Source: an uncultured Opitutia bacterium (GTDB taxonomy: Bacteria; Verrucomicrobiota; Verrucomicrobiia; Opitutales; Opitutaceae). From it: a stretch of DNA of 64,000 nucleotides. The stretch is taken from NCBI GenBank assembly GCA_903862955.1, contig CAIPAH010000004.1, forward strand, positions 1 through 64,000, given 5' to 3'. Shown here piece by piece: positions 1,162 to 8,508 of this stretch. The translations under genes and the position numbers were made by a program. The notes under the pieces are model-generated. The model saw only the letters and a program-made list of their open reading frames with translations. It was not told the origin of the DNA and made no database searches. Within the stretch, counting starts at the first letter, position 1; each line of letters opens with the position of its first letter.

Positions 1162-1404
1162 ATGGCTTCCACTCCGATCAAGCTTTCCGAACTGGCCGTC
1201 GGCGCGAGCGCCACGGTGCTGCAATACCCCCAGCAGGACGCCACCTTCCTGCGCCTGCGCGAAATGGGCCTGCTCGTCGGCACCCGCGTCACCCTCGTGC
1301 GCACCGCCCCGCTCGGCGATCCCCTCGAATTGAAGGTCCGTGGGTATCACCTCACCCTCCGCAAGGGCGACGCCGCCCACATTCTCGTCGAACCCGCTCC
1401 CTGA
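1162..1404 (+). CDS. feoA: FeoA-domain protein 2
   Basis: A second FeoA-like protein of 80 residues, starting at the ATG at 1162, which is the start closest to the conserved domain. It shows the family pattern LRLREMGLLVGTRVTLV and ends DAAHILVEP. The two tandem FeoA proteins are clearly related (both share LREMG and the AAHIxVE ending) but are divergent in sequence. The stop is followed after one base by the feoB start. Tandem feoA genes before feoB are known from other bacteria. Confidence 0.92.
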   Translation: MASTPIKLSELAVGASATVLQYPQQDATFLRLREMGLLVGTRVTLVRTAPLGDPLELKVRGYHLTLRKGDAAHILVEPAP

Positions 1405-1405
1405 G

Positions 1406-3532
1406 ATGGCCCTCCCGTCGCACATCGCCGCCCCTCCCACGGCTTCGCCCGCGGCCCGCGCCCCCGTTTATGCGCTGGTCGGCAATCCGAACTGCGGCAA
1501 GAGCACGCTGTTCAACGCCCTCACCGGCCTGAAGCAGAAGGTCGGCAATTACCCCGGCGTCACCGTCGAAAAAAAGGTCGGCACGACCTACTCACAGCAC
1601 GGCCAGCCCATCACCGTCATCGATTTGCCAGGCACTTACTCGCTCGCCGCGCGCTCGCCCGACGAGGCTGTGACCCGTGACGTGCTCCTCGGCCGCCGCA
1701 GCGACACCGCCCAGCCCGACCGCGTCCTTTGCATCGTCGACGCCGCCAATCTCGAGCGAAACCTCTACCTCGTTCACCAGATCCTCGACCTCGGCCGGCC
1801 CGTCATCGTGGTGCTGAACATGATGGATCTCGCCGTTCAGGCCGGCCTCAACATCCGCGTCGCGCGCTTGGAAAAGGAACTCGGCATCCCCGTCATCGCG
1901 TGCGAGGCCGTCAATGGCAAGGGCCTGGTCGAGCTGCGGCTCGCGATGAGCCGCCCCGACCTGCCGCTCGCGCGCCACGCTTGGGGCGTGCCCGCGCCCA
2001 TCGCGCCCGCCGTATCCGAAATCGCCGCGTCGCTCGTCGAGAACGACCTCAAGCTCCCGCTCATCGCGCGCGCCGAGGCGCTGTTGCTCCTGACCGACCA
2101 GGATTCCGTGCGCGTATCCGGCTCCGTGCCGCTCAGTGCCCGCACCACGGAAATCCTCCAAAGCTGGCAAAAGCGCTGGGCCGCCGAGGGCACCGACTGG
2201 GCCGGCATTCTCGTCAATTCGCGCTACGAGGCCATCGGCAATCTCGCCACCGAGGTCGTCCTGCGCGCCGGCACCGTGGGCCCGACGGCCTCCGACAAGA
2301 TTGACGCCGTCGTCACGCACCCCGTCTGGGGCTGGCTTGTCCTCGGGGTGGTGATGACGCTGCTCTTCGTCAGCATTTTCACCCTCGCGCAGGCGCCGAT
2401 GGACTGGATCGGCACGCACACCGCGCTGCTCGCCGACTGGGTGAAGGGCCACATGCCCGCCGGGGATTTGCGCGACCTGATCACCGACGGCGCCATCGGG
2501 GGCGTGGGGAGCATCGTGACGTTCCTGCCGCAGATCATGATTCTGTTCTTCTTCATCGGCCTGCTGGAAAGCACCGGCTACATGGCGCGCGCGGCGTTCA
2601 TCATGGACCGGCTGATGAGCCGCGTCGGCTTGAATGGGAAAAGCTTCATCCCGCTGCTCAGCTCCTACGCCTGCGCCATCCCCGGCATCATGGCCACGCG
2701 CACCATCGAGGACGCCAAGGATCGCCTCGTCACCATCCTCGTCGCGCCACTGATGAGCTGTTCCGCGCGCCTACCGGTTTATCTGCTGATGATCGCGGCA
2801 CTGCTGCCCAACGACCGCGTCTCCCTCGTCGCCAAGGTCGGGATCATGCTCCTGATGTATACGCTCGGCACCGCCGGCGCGTTCGGTTTCGCCTGGCTGT
2901 TCAAGCGCACGCTGCTGAAAGGCGCCCCGCCGCTGATGATCATGGAACTGCCGCCTTACCGGCTGCCGGGCGTGCGTGACGTACTGCTGCAGATGCTGGA
3001 GCGCGCCGGGATCTTTCTGCGCCGCGCGGGCACCGTCATTCTCGGCATCAGCATCGTGCTCTGGTTCCTCGCGGCGTATCCGAAGGCCCCGGCCGGCGCG
3101 ACGCCCACCCAGCAGCTCGCCCAGAGTTTCGCCGGACGCGCTGGCCACGCGCTCGAACCCGTCATCAAGCCACTCGGCTTCGACTGGCAGATCGGCATCG
3201 GCCTCATCAGCTCGTTCGCCGCGCGCGAGGTGTTCGTTTCCACCATGGGCGTGGTCTTCAACGCCGAATCCTCCGAGGAAAACACCGCGCCGCTGCGCGA
3301 CGCCCTCAAGGCCGCGCGCTGGCCCGACGGCCGCGTGCTGTTCACGCCGCTCGTGTGCCTGTCGCTGATGATCTTCTATGTCTTTGCCATGCAATGCATG
3401 AGCACCATCGCGGTGGTGCGACGCGAAACGAACAGCTGGCGATGGCCCCTCTTCCAAACGCTCTACATGACTGGCACCGCGTGGATTTTGACGTTCATTG
3501 TTTACCAAACCGGTCGCGCGCTCGGTTTCTGA
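1406..3532 (+). CDS. feoB: Ferrous iron transporter FeoB
   Basis: A 708-residue inner-membrane Fe(II) transporter. The N-terminal G domain shows G1 GNPNCGKS (about 26-33), G3 DLPG (73-76) and G4 NMMD (138-141). The C-terminal half is a polytopic membrane domain with two Gate modules; the conserved Cys-containing segments SSYACAIPGIMATRT and PLMSCSARLPVY are present. The ATG at 1406 is chosen because it follows the feoA stop by one base and gives a short tail before the G domain. Length and motifs are normal for the family. It forms an operon with the two feoA genes and the Cys-rich protein. Confidence 0.97.
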   Translation: MALPSHIAAPPTASPAARAPVYALVGNPNCGKSTLFNALTGLKQKVGNYPGVTVEKKVGTTYSQHGQPITVIDLPGTYSLAARSPDEAVTRDVLLGRRSDTAQPDRVLCIVDAANLERNLYLVHQILDLGRPVIVVLNMMDLAVQAGLNIRVARLEKELGIPVIACEAVNGKGLVELRLAMSRPDLPLARHAWGVPAPIAPAVSEIAASLVENDLKLPLIARAEALLLLTDQDSVRVSGSVPLSARTTEILQSWQKRWAAEGTDWAGILVNSRYEAIGNLATEVVLRAGTVGPTASDKIDAVVTHPVWGWLVLGVVMTLLFVSIFTLAQAPMDWIGTHTALLADWVKGHMPAGDLRDLITDGAIGGVGSIVTFLPQIMILFFFIGLLESTGYMARAAFIMDRLMSRVGLNGKSFIPLLSSYACAIPGIMATRTIEDAKDRLVTILVAPLMSCSARLPVYLLMIAALLPNDRVSLVAKVGIMLLMYTLGTAGAFGFAWLFKRTLLKGAPPLMIMELPPYRLPGVRDVLLQMLERAGIFLRRAGTVILGISIVLWFLAAYPKAPAGATPTQQLAQSFAGRAGHALEPVIKPLGFDWQIGIGLISSFAAREVFVSTMGVVFNAESSEENTAPLRDALKAARWPDGRVLFTPLVCLSLMIFYVFAMQCMSTIAVVRRETNSWRWPLFQTLYMTGTAWILTFIVYQTGRALGF

Positions 3533-3707: not shown

Positions 3708-4994
3708 TCAGGCCGCGATCGCTTCCGGAATTTCACGCCGCCCGCGCCCGATCGGTAACACCACGAGCGCCGCAATCAGGCAGAGCGCGCCCGCGCTGAA
3801 AAATGCCAGCGTGTAGGTCCCCGTCACCGTGCGCAGCACGCCCGCGGCCGACGTGGCGAACGCCGCGCCGACCTGGTGGAACGCCACGACCCAGCCAAAC
3901 ACGATGCTCGCCTTCTCGCGGCCAAAGACTTCACCCGTGAGCTTCACCGTCGGCGGCACCGTCGCAATCCAGTCGAGCCCGTAGAAAATCGCGAACACGC
4001 CCAGCCCCGCCACCGGCCCGAGCAGCGCCGCCGGCAGGAACAGCAGCGAAATCCCGCGCAAGCTGTAGTAGCCAAACAGCAGGTAGCGGCAGTTGAAGCG
4101 GTCGCTCAGCCAACCCGACGCCGTCGTCCCCACGAGGTCAAACATGCCCATCACCGCCAGCAGGCTCGCCGCCCGCACTTCCGGGATGCCGCAGTCGTAG
4201 GCCGCGGACACGAGGTGCGTGCCGATCAGGCCGTTCGTGCTGGCGCCGCACACAAAGAAGGACGCCGCCAGCAGCCAGAAATCCCGCACGCGCATCGCCT
4301 CGATCAGCGTGTCGATCGCCCGCTTCGCCGGATTGCCCTTCGCTGGCGCAGCCTTCGCCCCGACCGGCCCCGTTTCGCCGAACGGGCGCAGCCCGACGTC
4401 CCGGGGATCATCCCGCATCAGCCACCAGATGAAGGGAATCGTCAGCAGCGTCGCCGCGGCCACGACGATCGGCGCACCGCGCCAGCCATAGTTCGTCACC
4501 ACGGTCGCCAGCCACGGCAAAAAGATGAGCTGTCCCGTGGCCGCACTGGCAGTGAGCAAACCCATCACCAGCCCGCGCCGCTGCGTGAACCAGCGGTTGG
4601 CCACGGCCGCGCCCAACACCGTCGCCGCCATGCCCGAACCGAGCCCAACCACCACGCCCCACAGAATCACGAACTGCCAGTAGTGCGTCGCCAACGTCGA
4701 AAGCCCGTAGCCTCCCGCCAGCAGGATCATCGCCGCCACCATCACCCGCTTCAGCCCGAACCGTTGGTAGAGCGCCGCGGCAAATGGCCCGACCAGCCCG
4801 TAAAGGAAGATGTTGATCGAGACGATCGATGACACCGTCGCCCTGCTCCATTGAAAGTCATTGCCCAGCGGCACCAGCACCACGCCCGGCATCGCCCGCG
4901 CCCCCGCTGCCGCCAGCAGCGTGAAAAACGTCACGCCCGCCGCGATCCACGCGTAATGCAGCTTCGGCGCAGCCGAGGGGGAGAGGGCTTTCAT
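3708..4994 (-). CDS. MFS transporter (monocarboxylate/OFA-like)
   Basis: A 428-residue major facilitator superfamily permease with about 12 hydrophobic segments. The N-terminal half contains FGLKRVMVA in the loop between helices 2 and 3 (family motif GxxxDRxGRR in diverged form) and a similar SDRFNCRYLL after helix 8. The overall pattern, with WSRATVSSIVSIN at helix 1-2 and WFTQRRGLVMGL after helix 4, resembles the oxalate/formate and monocarboxylate groups of the superfamily. The substrate cannot be read from sequence. It stands alone on its strand, convergent with the feo operon and divergent from the amidohydrolases. Confidence 0.85.
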   Translation of the reverse strand: MKALSPSAAPKLHYAWIAAGVTFFTLLAAAGARAMPGVVLVPLGNDFQWSRATVSSIVSINIFLYGLVGPFAAALYQRFGLKRVMVAAMILLAGGYGLSTLATHYWQFVILWGVVVGLGSGMAATVLGAAVANRWFTQRRGLVMGLLTASAATGQLIFLPWLATVVTNYGWRGAPIVVAAATLLTIPFIWWLMRDDPRDVGLRPFGETGPVGAKAAPAKGNPAKRAIDTLIEAMRVRDFWLLAASFFVCGASTNGLIGTHLVSAAYDCGIPEVRAASLLAVMGMFDLVGTTASGWLSDRFNCRYLLFGYYSLRGISLLFLPAALLGPVAGLGVFAIFYGLDWIATVPPTVKLTGEVFGREKASIVFGWVVAFHQVGAAFATSAAGVLRTVTGTYTLAFFSAGALCLIAALVVLPIGRGRREIPEAIAA

Positions 4995-5137
4995 GACAGG
5001 CGGGGACGTTTATCAGGAATCGCCCTGCGTCAAATCCCCCGTCCACCACATCCATCGCCTATCTCCCATCTCCGGCGGCGTTCCGCGCCGTATTTCCCAT
5101 TTGCCGCCGCCCCTGCCCGCCCTACGCTCGCGAGCCT

Positions 5138-6478
5138 ATGCCTTATCGTCCCCTGTCCGGCATGGCGTTGTTGTGCGCTTTGGCCGTCGGTCTTTGCGCT
5201 CAGGAAAAACCCCAGGCCTTCACCAACGCCCAGATCATCCCCATCGCCGGCGATCCCATCGCGCATGGCGTGCTCGTGGTCCAGGGTGGCAAGATCCTCG
5301 CCGTCGGCGCGGTCGGCCAGGTCAAGCTTCCTCCTGGAACCCAGGTTCACGATGTCACCGGCCAGGTGCTCATGCCCGGCTTGATTGACTCCCACAGCCA
5401 CATTGGCGCCGGCAGTGGCGGCGACGGCTCAGCTCCGATCCAGCCCGACGCCCGCGTGCTCGACTCGCTCGATGTCCGCGACGCGTCCATCCAGAAGGCC
5501 CGCGCGGGCGGCATCACCGCCGTCAACGTCATGCCCGGCTCCGGCCACCTCATCAGTGGCCAAACCCTCTACCTGAAACTCCGCACGGCCCGCACGATCG
5601 ATGACCTGCTCATCAAGCTGCCCGACGGCTCCAACGCCGGCGGACTCAAGATGGCCAATGGCACCAACTCCATCAAGGCCGCCCCGTTTCCCGGCACCCG
5701 CGCCAAGTCCGCCGCCCTCGTCCGCGAGCAATACATCAAGGCCCAGGAATATCGCGACAAGATCAAGCGCGCCAACGGCGACCCCGACAAGATGCCGCCG
5801 CGCGACCTCGGACTGGAGGAACTCGTCGAAGTCCTCGACGGCAAGCGCATCGTCCAGAATCACACGCACCGCCACGACGACATCCTCACCGTCCTCCGCC
5901 TCTCCAAGGAATTCGGCTTCAAGGTCGTCCTCCACCACGTCAGCGAGGGCTGGAAGGTCGCCGACGAGATCGCCGCCGCCCACGTGCCGTGCTCGGTCAT
6001 CATGATCGATTCGCCCGGCGGCAAACTGGAGACGCGCGACGCCGACTGGCGCACGCCCGCCATCCTCGAGAAGGCCGGCGTGCTCGTCGGCTTCCACACC
6101 GACGACCCGATCTGCGACTCCCGCCGCTTCCTGCGCAGCGCCGGCTACGCGGTGCGCGCCGGCATGACGCGCAAAGGCGCGCTCGAGGCCGTCACGATCG
6201 CCAACGCCAAAATCCTCGGCCTCGAAGCCCGCACGGGTTCGCTCGAAGTGGGCAAGGACGCCGATTTTATCCTCCTCTCCGGTGATCCGCTGAGCGTCTA
6301 CACCCACGTGGAACAAACCTGGGTCGAGGGCAAAAAGGTCTTCGATCTCACCAATCCCGAGGACCACCTCTACGCCGTCGGCGGGGTGGGGGCCGGCGAT
6401 TCGCGCCGCGCCCAGCTTTGCTGCTTCACCAGCGCCTGGGACCTGATCATGGCCGCCAACGAGGGAGGCAACCAATGA
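5138..6478 (+). CDS. Secreted metal-dependent amidohydrolase
   Basis: A 446-residue protein of the imidazolonepropionase-like amidohydrolase group. A signal peptide is visible (about 1-22, ending near LCAQ), so it is exported. Metal-site residues are present in order: HSH at 86-88 after PGLID, the HTHRH segment at 242-246, HH at 266-267 and HTDDP at 320-324 with the catalytic Asp. The C-terminal GSLEVGKDADFILL strand is typical of the family. An alternative ATG at 5162 is possible. The stop overlaps the start of the next gene by 4 bases (ATGA). The substrate is unknown; a peptide, cyclic amide or similar is plausible. Confidence 0.88.
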   Translation: MPYRPLSGMALLCALAVGLCAQEKPQAFTNAQIIPIAGDPIAHGVLVVQGGKILAVGAVGQVKLPPGTQVHDVTGQVLMPGLIDSHSHIGAGSGGDGSAPIQPDARVLDSLDVRDASIQKARAGGITAVNVMPGSGHLISGQTLYLKLRTARTIDDLLIKLPDGSNAGGLKMANGTNSIKAAPFPGTRAKSAALVREQYIKAQEYRDKIKRANGDPDKMPPRDLGLEELVEVLDGKRIVQNHTHRHDDILTVLRLSKEFGFKVVLHHVSEGWKVADEIAAAHVPCSVIMIDSPGGKLETRDADWRTPAILEKAGVLVGFHTDDPICDSRRFLRSAGYAVRAGMTRKGALEAVTIANAKILGLEARTGSLEVGKDADFILLSGDPLSVYTHVEQTWVEGKKVFDLTNPEDHLYAVGGVGAGDSRRAQLCCFTSAWDLIMAANEGGNQ

Positions 6479-7716
6479 AAACGTCCCTTCGCCTTCTCGT
6501 CCTCGCCGCTCTCGCTATTGCGCCGCTCAGCCTTCGTGCGGAGAACGTCGCCATCACCGGCGACACGGTTTACACCATGGCCGGCACCCCGCTCAAAAAC
6601 GGCGTCGTGCTTATCCGCGACGGCAAGATCGAGGCCGTCGGCCCCGCCAACACCGTCAAGATTCCCGCCGACTATCGCGTACTCAAGGCCGCCGTCGTCA
6701 CGCCGGGCTTGATCGACGCCCACGCCACCGTCGGCCTGTCCGGCCTGTTGAACCAGCCGCAGGACCAGGACATGTGGGAAAAATCCGCACCAATGCAGCC
6801 CGAACTGCGCGCGATCGACGCCTACAACGCCAAAGATCCCCTCGTCGCTTGGGTGCGCTCGTTTGGCGTCACCACCGTCAACACCGGCCACGCGCCCACC
6901 GCGCTGATTTCCGGCCAGACGATGATCGTCAAGACGCTCGGCCACGAGGCCGACGAGGATGTCATCAACCCCTCCGCCATGACGTCCGTCACGCTCGGCC
7001 GCAACGGCCTCAACGCCGCCGATGGCTCGCCCGGCTCCGCCTCCAAATCGCCCGGCACCCGCGCCAAGGCGGTCGCCATGCTGCGGGATGAACTCATCAA
7101 GGCCCAGGAATACGCCCACAAACGCGAGGGCAAGGACGAGGCCAAGCGGCCCGGCCGCGACCTCCGCCTCGAGGCCGTGCTCCGCGCCATCGACGGCTCA
7201 CAGCCCTTCCTCGTCACCGTCAACCGCCAGCAGGACATCATCTCCGCCCTGCGCCTCGCCCGGGAATTCAAACTCAAGATCATCCTCGACGGCTGCGCCG
7301 ACGCGCCGCTGGTCATCAACGAGATCAAGGCCAGCGGCTTCCCCGTCATCGTGCACCCCACGATGCAGCGCAGTTACGAGGACATGGAAAACCTCAGCGT
7401 CGAGACCGCCGGCCGCCTCCACGCCGCGGGCATTCCCATCGCCTTGCAGAGCAGCTACGAGTCCTATGTGCCCAAGACGCGCGTGGTGCTCTTCGAGGCC
7501 GCCGTCGCCGCGGCCAACGGCCTCGGCTTCGAGCCGGCGCTCGCCAGCATCACGATCGACGCCGCCAAGCTGCTCAACATCGCCGACCGCACCGGCTCCC
7601 TGGAAAAGGGCAAGGATGGCGACGTCGCGCTCTACGACGGCGACCCGTTCGAATACACCTCGCATTGCATCGGCACCGTCATCAACGGCCAGGTCTTCGC
7701 CGACGGCCCGCACTGA
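6475..7716 (+). CDS. Amidohydrolase paralogue lacking metal ligands
   Basis: A 413-residue protein starting at the ATG in the 4-base overlap with the gene before. It has a signal peptide (about 1-22) and aligns with its neighbour over the full length, sharing for example PGLID, ISGQT, KAQEY and TGSLEKGKD. Every visible metal-ligand position is changed: HSH becomes HAT (83-85), HTHRH becomes TVNRQ (248-252), HH becomes DG (272-273) and HTDD becomes QSSY (325-328). The fold is therefore probably kept but the standard hydrolase chemistry is not. It may be a partner subunit or a binding protein for the active paralogue. The frame is intact, so it is not a pseudogene by sequence. Confidence 0.85.
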   Translation: MKTSLRLLVLAALAIAPLSLRAENVAITGDTVYTMAGTPLKNGVVLIRDGKIEAVGPANTVKIPADYRVLKAAVVTPGLIDAHATVGLSGLLNQPQDQDMWEKSAPMQPELRAIDAYNAKDPLVAWVRSFGVTTVNTGHAPTALISGQTMIVKTLGHEADEDVINPSAMTSVTLGRNGLNAADGSPGSASKSPGTRAKAVAMLRDELIKAQEYAHKREGKDEAKRPGRDLRLEAVLRAIDGSQPFLVTVNRQQDIISALRLAREFKLKIILDGCADAPLVINEIKASGFPVIVHPTMQRSYEDMENLSVETAGRLHAAGIPIALQSSYESYVPKTRVVLFEAAVAAANGLGFEPALASITIDAAKLLNIADRTGSLEKGKDGDVALYDGDPFEYTSHCIGTVINGQVFADGPH

Positions 7717-7722
7717 TCTCCC

Positions 7723-8508
7723 ATGGAAGTCATCATCCGCAAAGACGCCGACACCGGCTGCATCCTCGGGGCCAAGATCATCGCGCGTTACGTGCGCGAG
7801 AAACCGTCCTGCGTCCTCGGCCTCGCCACCGGTCGCACGCCCCTCCGGCTCTATCAGGAGCTCATCCGGATGCACCATGAGGAGAAGCTCGATTTCAGCC
7901 GCGTCACGACCTTCAACCTCGACGAATACGTCGGCCTGCCCGCGTCGCACGACCAGTCCTACCGGTATTTCATGCGGGAGAATTTCTTCCGCCACATCAA
8001 CATCGACCCCGCCCACACGCACGTGCCCGACGGCACCGCGCCCGACCTCCACGCCGAGTGCCGCGCCTACGAGGAACGCATCATCGCCGCCGGCGGCATC
8101 GATCTCCAGCTGCTGGGCCTCGGCCGCAACGGCCACATCGGGTTCAACGAGCCCTCCGGCTCCCTGCGCTCGCGCACGTGGATCAAGATTCTCTCCGAGC
8201 AGACGCTGCAGGATAACAGCGACGTCTTCGGCTCCCGCTCCGCGATGCCGCGCCACGCGATCACGATGGGCATCGGCACGATCCTCGACGCCCGCCGCTG
8301 CCTCCTGCTGGCCTTCGGCCCGCCCAAGGCCCGCGCCGTCGAACGCATGATCGAGGGTCCGCTCGCCGCCATCTGCCCCGCCTCCGCCCTCCAGCTGCAC
8401 CCGCGCGCCACCGTCGTCGTCGACGAGGCCTCCGCCTCCGCCCTGCAGTTCGCCGACCACTACCGCTGGATCGACGCCAACAAGCTCCCCTGGCAGCGCT
8501 ACGACTGA
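7723..8508 (+). CDS. nagB: Glucosamine-6-phosphate deaminase
   Basis: A 261-residue cytosolic enzyme that converts glucosamine-6-phosphate to fructose-6-phosphate and ammonia. Family motifs are all present: GLATGRTP (phosphate loop), TTFNLDEYVGL with the catalytic Asp, GLGRNGHIGFNEP and the later ITMGIGTI. Length is typical. It follows the amidohydrolase pair by 6 bases, so it may share their transcript; this could link that pair to amino-sugar or cell-wall turnover, but that is inference. A strong inverted repeat follows the stop. Confidence 0.95.
   Translation: MEVIIRKDADTGCILGAKIIARYVREKPSCVLGLATGRTPLRLYQELIRMHHEEKLDFSRVTTFNLDEYVGLPASHDQSYRYFMRENFFRHINIDPAHTHVPDGTAPDLHAECRAYEERIIAAGGIDLQLLGLGRNGHIGFNEPSGSLRSRTWIKILSEQTLQDNSDVFGSRSAMPRHAITMGIGTILDARRCLLLAFGPPKARAVERMIEGPLAAICPASALQLHPRATVVVDEASASALQFADHYRWIDANKLPWQRYD

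Follow-up and report, generated by a model that had tools for sequence, protein, structure and literature searches.

A metal-less amidohydrolase paralogue constantly paired with a catalytic one, a probable non-catalytic partner

The window is the whole stretch of DNA analysed, 64,000 nucleotides from an uncultured Opitutia bacterium (family Opitutaceae; contig CAIPAH010000004.1, positions 1 to 64,000), and belongs to a genome of 3.6 Mb. Two overlapping amidohydrolase genes lie on its forward strand. Gene A (5138..6478, +) encodes a protein of 446 aa with a complete metal-site set, classed from its reading frame and ligand columns as a catalytic amidohydrolase. Gene B (6475..7716, +) encodes a protein of 413 aa from which the metal site is lost, classed as a pseudo-amidohydrolase from its reading frame, ligand columns and structural model. 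The genes share the tetranucleotide ATGA (6475..6478, +), composed of the start codon ATG of B and the stop codon TGA of A; in 40 of 90 related loci the overlap is likewise 4 nt exactly, with start codons chosen by script. Likely signal peptides, read by eye, occupy residues 1-21 of A (5138..5200, +) and residues 1-22 of B (6475..6540, +); both proteins are probably exported. A glucosamine-6-phosphate deaminase gene (7723-8508; 343.5 bits, cut-off 326) starts 6 nt past B, and a 261-aa open reading frame, presumably the same deaminase, stands after B in nine relatives. No gene recurring right after B beyond close relatives was found in a by-eye scan of the downstream regions. On the opposite strand, 143 nt upstream of A, starts an MFS transporter-like gene (3708-4994, -), which scores under all named cut-offs (best score 132 bits, against a lactate transporter model with a cut-off of 320). 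A FeoB ferrous iron transporter is encoded at 1340-3532 (517 bits, cut-off 316).

Metal ligands of the amidohydrolase superfamily are an HxH motif on beta-1, a lysine on beta-4, histidines on beta-5 and beta-6 and an aspartate on beta-8. Both proteins pass the Pfam gathering scores for Amidohydro_1 (cut-off 25 bits; A 61.3, B 37.4) and Amidohydro_3 (cut-off 29.7 bits; A 72.6, B 42.9). A belongs to the superfamily by these scores and by all six ligands; B belongs by score and by its complete predicted fold, and lacks the metal ligands. Family libraries score both genes as plain amidohydrolases, and the loss of the metal site in B is easily overlooked. The nearest solved structure to both by sequence is PDB 3ooq from Thermotoga maritima (E 9.3e-61 for A, 6.8e-39 for B). 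A is far under the cut-offs of named families, the best score being that on Xaa-Pro dipeptidase (NF051886; 74.1 bits, cut-off 500), and B does not score as a dihydroorotase (pyrC_multi 18.6 bits, cut-off 279; PRK07627.1 19 bits, cut-off 442). The closest named records with B, among the matches listed, are Opitutaceae and other Verrucomicrobiota.

By the superfamily pattern, the ligands of A are taken to be H86, H88, K171, H242, H267 and D322. They were followed through 89 A and 94 B sequences, which are search hits and no random draw. Excluded were A matches of at most 400 bits (L131, which is partial, and L098, which is split) as well as B matches of at most 350 bits; two B rows (L084, L095) are each more than 98% identical to another row. 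All six ligand columns are complete in 89/89 A sequences: H86-S-H88, the HxH of beta-1 (5393..5401, +), with H at both positions; K171 of beta-4 (5648..5650, +), probably a bridging metal ligand, as we assume; H242-T-H244 of beta-5 (5861..5869, +), with both histidines constant; H267 of beta-6 (5936..5938, +); and D322 of beta-8 (6101..6103, +). In B at most one of the six is present in 94/94 sequences, one in 81 and none in 13. The single ligand left in those 81 is H83 in 79 and the beta-5 histidine in two. H83 lies in the HxH remnant H83-A-T85 (6721..6729, +) and is replaced by R in 15/94. The position of the beta-4 lysine is occupied by T, S, A, V or N in 94/94 B, by T173 in the window. At the beta-5 ligand position T248 (7216..7218, +) is T in 76/94 and H in 2; at the beta-6 position G273 (7291..7293, +) is G in 85/94 and S in 9/94.

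The initial annotation had called A and B alignable paralogues, which is borne out by 33% identity over 396 columns (E 1e-56). The motif changes it listed (HSH to HAT, HTHRH to TVNRQ, HH to DG, HTDD to QSSY) read as given, and a sixth site, K171 to T173, is added to them. Its description of B as being without any metal ligand stands in that every B has at most one of six, and does not stand to the letter for the window, where B retains H83.

At several of these places the replacement residues in B are themselves conserved. G273 is found in 85/94 sequences, D272 in 90/94, Q325 in 91/94, E329 and Y331 in 94/94; because these are near-constant, the former metal places show no mere decay. The pattern is found across three phyla, and for this reason a chance origin was set aside. 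The former beta-8 metal segment has become an almost invariant new sequence, Q-S-x-x-E-x-Y-V-P-K, which in the window is QSSYESYVPK (residues 325-334; 7447..7476, +), with E329, Y331, P333 and K334 invariant. Residues 331-340 are the most conserved of the 42 ten-residue blocks of B (0.95), and 48 columns are invariant across 66 B sequences of several phyla. Two histidines outside the ligand set, H139 (6889..6891, +) and H294 just past beta-7 (7354..7356, +), are present in 94/94 split B; in fused B halves they occur in 0/5 and 2/5, respectively. A extends 43 residues past the end of the A/B alignment and has a C-terminal tail with conserved GGxGAG...LCCF (6368..6427, +), missing from B on comparison of the reading frames. 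The dipeptide CC is found within the last 45 residues of 72/88 A reading frames versus 0/93 B reading frames, and only twice altogether elsewhere in the A frames. In two A-B fusions (L170, L172) it is the B half that ends in a CC tail.

Both proteins were searched for in 889 genomes, 387 of Verrucomicrobiota, 247 of Acidobacteriota and 255 of Planctomycetota, at E limits of 1e-60, 1e-90 and 1e-90 for A and 1e-20, 1e-30 and 1e-85 for B, respectively; B of Acidobacteriota are matches of at least 53% identity, among the matches listed. A occurs in 93/889 genomes, and B adjoins or is fused to it in 93/93 (Acidobacteriota B among the matches listed), being cut by a contig end in four. Verrucomicrobiota have A in 9/387 and an adjoining B in the same nine. 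Acidobacteriota have A in 40/247 and, among the matches listed, an adjoining B in the same 40, crossing the contig end in G546. Planctomycetota have A in 44/255; in 37 of these B is a separate gene, in 5 it is fused to A, and in 2 it starts and is then cut off by the contig end. B reaches E 1e-85 or better in 38 of these 44, including one fusion and one copy cut by a contig end (G880); the remaining six are four further fusions and the two B starts that end with the contig. No clear B without A was seen in the 889 genomes (for Acidobacteriota, among the matches listed at 53% identity or more). A lies on the strand of B and upstream of it in 90/93 B loci; in the remaining three, B starts 113-278 nt from the contig start. 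A B-only search of the order gave B above 450 bits in 8/177 genomes, three of them common to the phylum set; a match to A adjoins B in seven, and in the eighth (G099) the contig begins inside A. The best 80 of 284 loci from the named collection belong to Verrucomicrobiota (40), Planctomycetota (23), Acidobacteriota (16) and one titled Bacteroidota; these loci are metagenome bins, so that misbinning may account for a lone odd placement. The pair is patchy, with 93/889 genomes having it and one genome of the same genus (G485) lacking both genes. Pairwise distances of A and B correlate (r 0.89, 89 pairs), as shared ancestry alone would also produce.

B is predicted to keep the complete amidohydrolase fold. 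Its AlphaFold2 model, from an alignment of 66 sequences, has a mean pLDDT of 87.4 and pTM of 0.88; that of A, from 60 sequences, has 88.8 and 0.87. The B model superposes on 3ooq_A with Z 47.8 and rmsd 2.0 A over 373 aligned residues, and the next entry has Z 26.4 (Foldseek was also run). One stretch in each protein is conserved yet poorly modelled: residues 91-100 of B (pLDDT 48, conservation 0.76) and 291-300 of A (pLDDT 57, conservation 0.91). Such stretches would fit contacts with a partner missing from the model; substrate loops would look alike.

Across the window and 27 relatives that have both genes, median NG86 dN/dS is 0.27 for B and 0.21 for A, calculated from pairs with dS < 1.5 (279/378 for B, 335/378 for A); 99/378 and 43/378 pairs, respectively, were left out because dS reached 1.5 or no value resulted. 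Window versus L055 gives about 0.13 for A and about 0.17 for B; window versus L036 gives about 0.18 and about 0.22. Mean p-distance is 0.402 for B versus 0.365 for A. B thus changes slightly faster than A and is clearly constrained. Two outcomes that the initial annotation named as fatal to its proposal, a high dN/dS and a second gene that is often lost, were both looked for: relaxed selection is rejected at a median of 0.27 against 0.21 for A, and frequent loss is rejected by B adjoining or fused in 93/93 genomes with A. The check it suggested, for the same pair and the same losses in relatives, returned the pair in 93/93 genomes and at most one ligand of six in 94/94 B. Its proposal that the open frame and scaffold of B are under selection for another role, such as that of a partner, gains support from purifying selection, constant pairing and five natural fusions.

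These fusions, A-B in a single open frame of 851 to 948 codons, occur in five Planctomycetota genomes (L169-L173). The A half has 6/6 ligands and the B half at most one in 5/5. Fused A halves fall with A in the tree (98/99) and fused B halves with B (100/99), so each fusion unites true counterparts. Fused B halves retain E329, Y331, P333 and K334 in 5/5.

More distant relatives, reached from the B searches, form triads of a degenerate, a catalytic and a second degenerate amidohydrolase domain. In L161, L162, L166 and L167 each domain has its own gene; in L043-L054, L165 and L168 a degenerate and the catalytic domain are fused and the other degenerate domain is encoded apart; L163 and L164 have all three in a single gene. 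The H-H-H-H-D set is confined to the middle domain in 20/20 loci read, for which His/Asp columns were tabulated; triad loci are search hits, no random draw, and in L049-L053 the first domain is recognised partly (in L050 only its end). A stand-alone catalytic group of 18 sequences (L061-L077, L079) has the full His/Asp set throughout. A second match is absent from 17/18 of the corresponding genomes, while G316 has one on another contig; the fold can therefore work alone. A together with the fused form is sister to the catalytic domain of the triads (98/95 and 98/94). Without an outgroup all degenerate groups fall on one side of a weakly supported branch (63/37 in the careful tree; 82, by SH-aLRT only, in the quick tree). 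With four distant outgroup proteins added, B falls with the stand-alone catalytic sequences (97/89) and the two degenerate groups of the triads pair up (92/88), an arrangement that carries a long-branch warning. Depending on the root, the degenerate domains of pairs and triads may go back to one loss or to several; both are possible.

A and B probably form a hetero-complex in which B is the obligate subunit without catalysis, A itself being a metal-dependent amidohydrolase of the 3ooq branch. The reading of B as a subunit follows from strict pairing, gene order with overlap, natural fusions and the kept fold. B has retained the fold, lost the catalytic residues, remained under purifying selection and been found with a catalytic paralogue in 93/93 genomes, as is looked for in a pseudoenzyme partner. 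Many amidohydrolases are oligomers, so the replacement of a catalytic chain by a non-catalytic one is an easy path. On this account B would be an old paralogue of A from which the metal site has gone and in which the whole fold remains; the overlapping genes would let A and B be made together, and the two would be exported together and assemble into the hetero-complex. B, judged inactive from its lost ligands, may then stabilise A, shape access to its active site or regulate it through the remade pocket. Since the beta-8 segment is both remade and highly conserved, the mouth or surrounding face of B probably has a specific task: it may contact A, gate the site of A or bind a small molecule. 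Physical contact between A and B, their export, the inactivity of B and its precise role, and what A acts on are what we infer from these data.

Other readings take the conserved mouth of B as their starting point. B could itself be an enzyme that works through another active site, the mouth having been rebuilt from H83, H139, D272, H294, E329 and Y331 around another metal or none for a related substrate. H139, H294, E329 and Y331 are constant in 94/94 split B and D272 in 90/94, and the model places H83, H139, D272, H294 and, less closely, E329 at or just past predicted strand ends, on what would be the catalytic side. This reading is nevertheless rather unlikely, as H83 is R in 15/94 B, fused B halves are without H139 in 5/5 and without H294 in 3/5, and the usual ligand set is not restored. 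The same conserved mouth would suit a protein that binds the substrate or product of the pathway of A and makes no contact with A. Adjoining genes often serve one pathway, and co-occurrence and gene order, taken from genome comparison, can also reflect two steps of one pathway. Five A-B fusions, and the triads L163 and L164 made as single polypeptides, are easier to reconcile with a fixed complex, and a binding protein that stays apart from A is unlikely.

Decay of a duplicate held by linkage would explain the lost metal site and the somewhat larger p-distance of B. It is hardly credible in view of a median dN/dS of 0.27, 48 invariant columns in 66 sequences of several phyla and retention of B in 93/93 genomes with A. 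A non-catalytic subunit of the A complex remains the preferred reading of B, against which stand the patchy occurrence of the pair and the stand-alone catalytic group.

Among solved structures, 3ooq is the nearest relative of A and B by sequence and of B by fold; it differs in that A has the GGxGAG...LCCF tail and a likely signal peptide and that B is without the metal site. A search of open papers found none that names 3ooq together with an amidohydrolase. The next fold matches of B, at Z about 26, are carboxypeptidases of the Prolidase/Cc2672 type (3feq, 3n2c, 3mtw), whose ligand set is presumably similar to that of A. CRMP proteins, dihydropyrimidinase-like and non-catalytic, resemble B in having the amidohydrolase fold without a working metal site; they are animal proteins with other partners. 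The triads and the pair in bacteria were searched for in open papers, most subscription papers lying outside the scope, and no description was found there. That a degenerate amidohydrolase can act as a structural partner has a clear precedent in the inactive dihydroorotase of bacterial and fungal aspartate transcarbamylase, which, according to PMC4581275, has the amidohydrolase fold, has lost catalysis and is kept in the complex. It is needed for assembly in Pseudomonas putida, according to the title of a work cited in PMC4581275. That likeness to B has a limit: the partner of the inactive dihydroorotase is an unrelated transcarbamylase, whereas that of B is a catalytic paralogue. In the pair described here the degenerate copy is matched with its own live paralogue, a theme that recurs in the triads.

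Pairs and triads may tentatively be placed, at somewhat less than even confidence, in a wide class of exported bacterial enzymes. In these a catalytic amidohydrolase would work only once assembled with metal-less versions of its own fold, one in the pairs and two in the degenerate-catalytic-degenerate triads, and the remade pockets would detect the substrate or pass it on. Should the degenerate copies prove to be necessary subunits, expression of the catalytic chain by itself may fail or give misleading results. With their natural split and fused forms, pairs and triads would make a good test set for the passage of an enzyme duplicate into a structural or regulatory subunit.

Several loci depart from the usual layout. 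A of L098 (about 3900-5411) is split over two frames, by an assembly error or a true frameshift. The B matches at G735:C19:16722-17918 and G976:C116:9283-10491 each hold one in-frame TGA, for which an assembly error is possible. In eight Acidobacteriota (G639, G691, G745, G666, G753, G699, G648, G620) the B match is, among the matches listed, in two pieces; the break near query residues 213-221 suggests an insertion particular to this subgroup.
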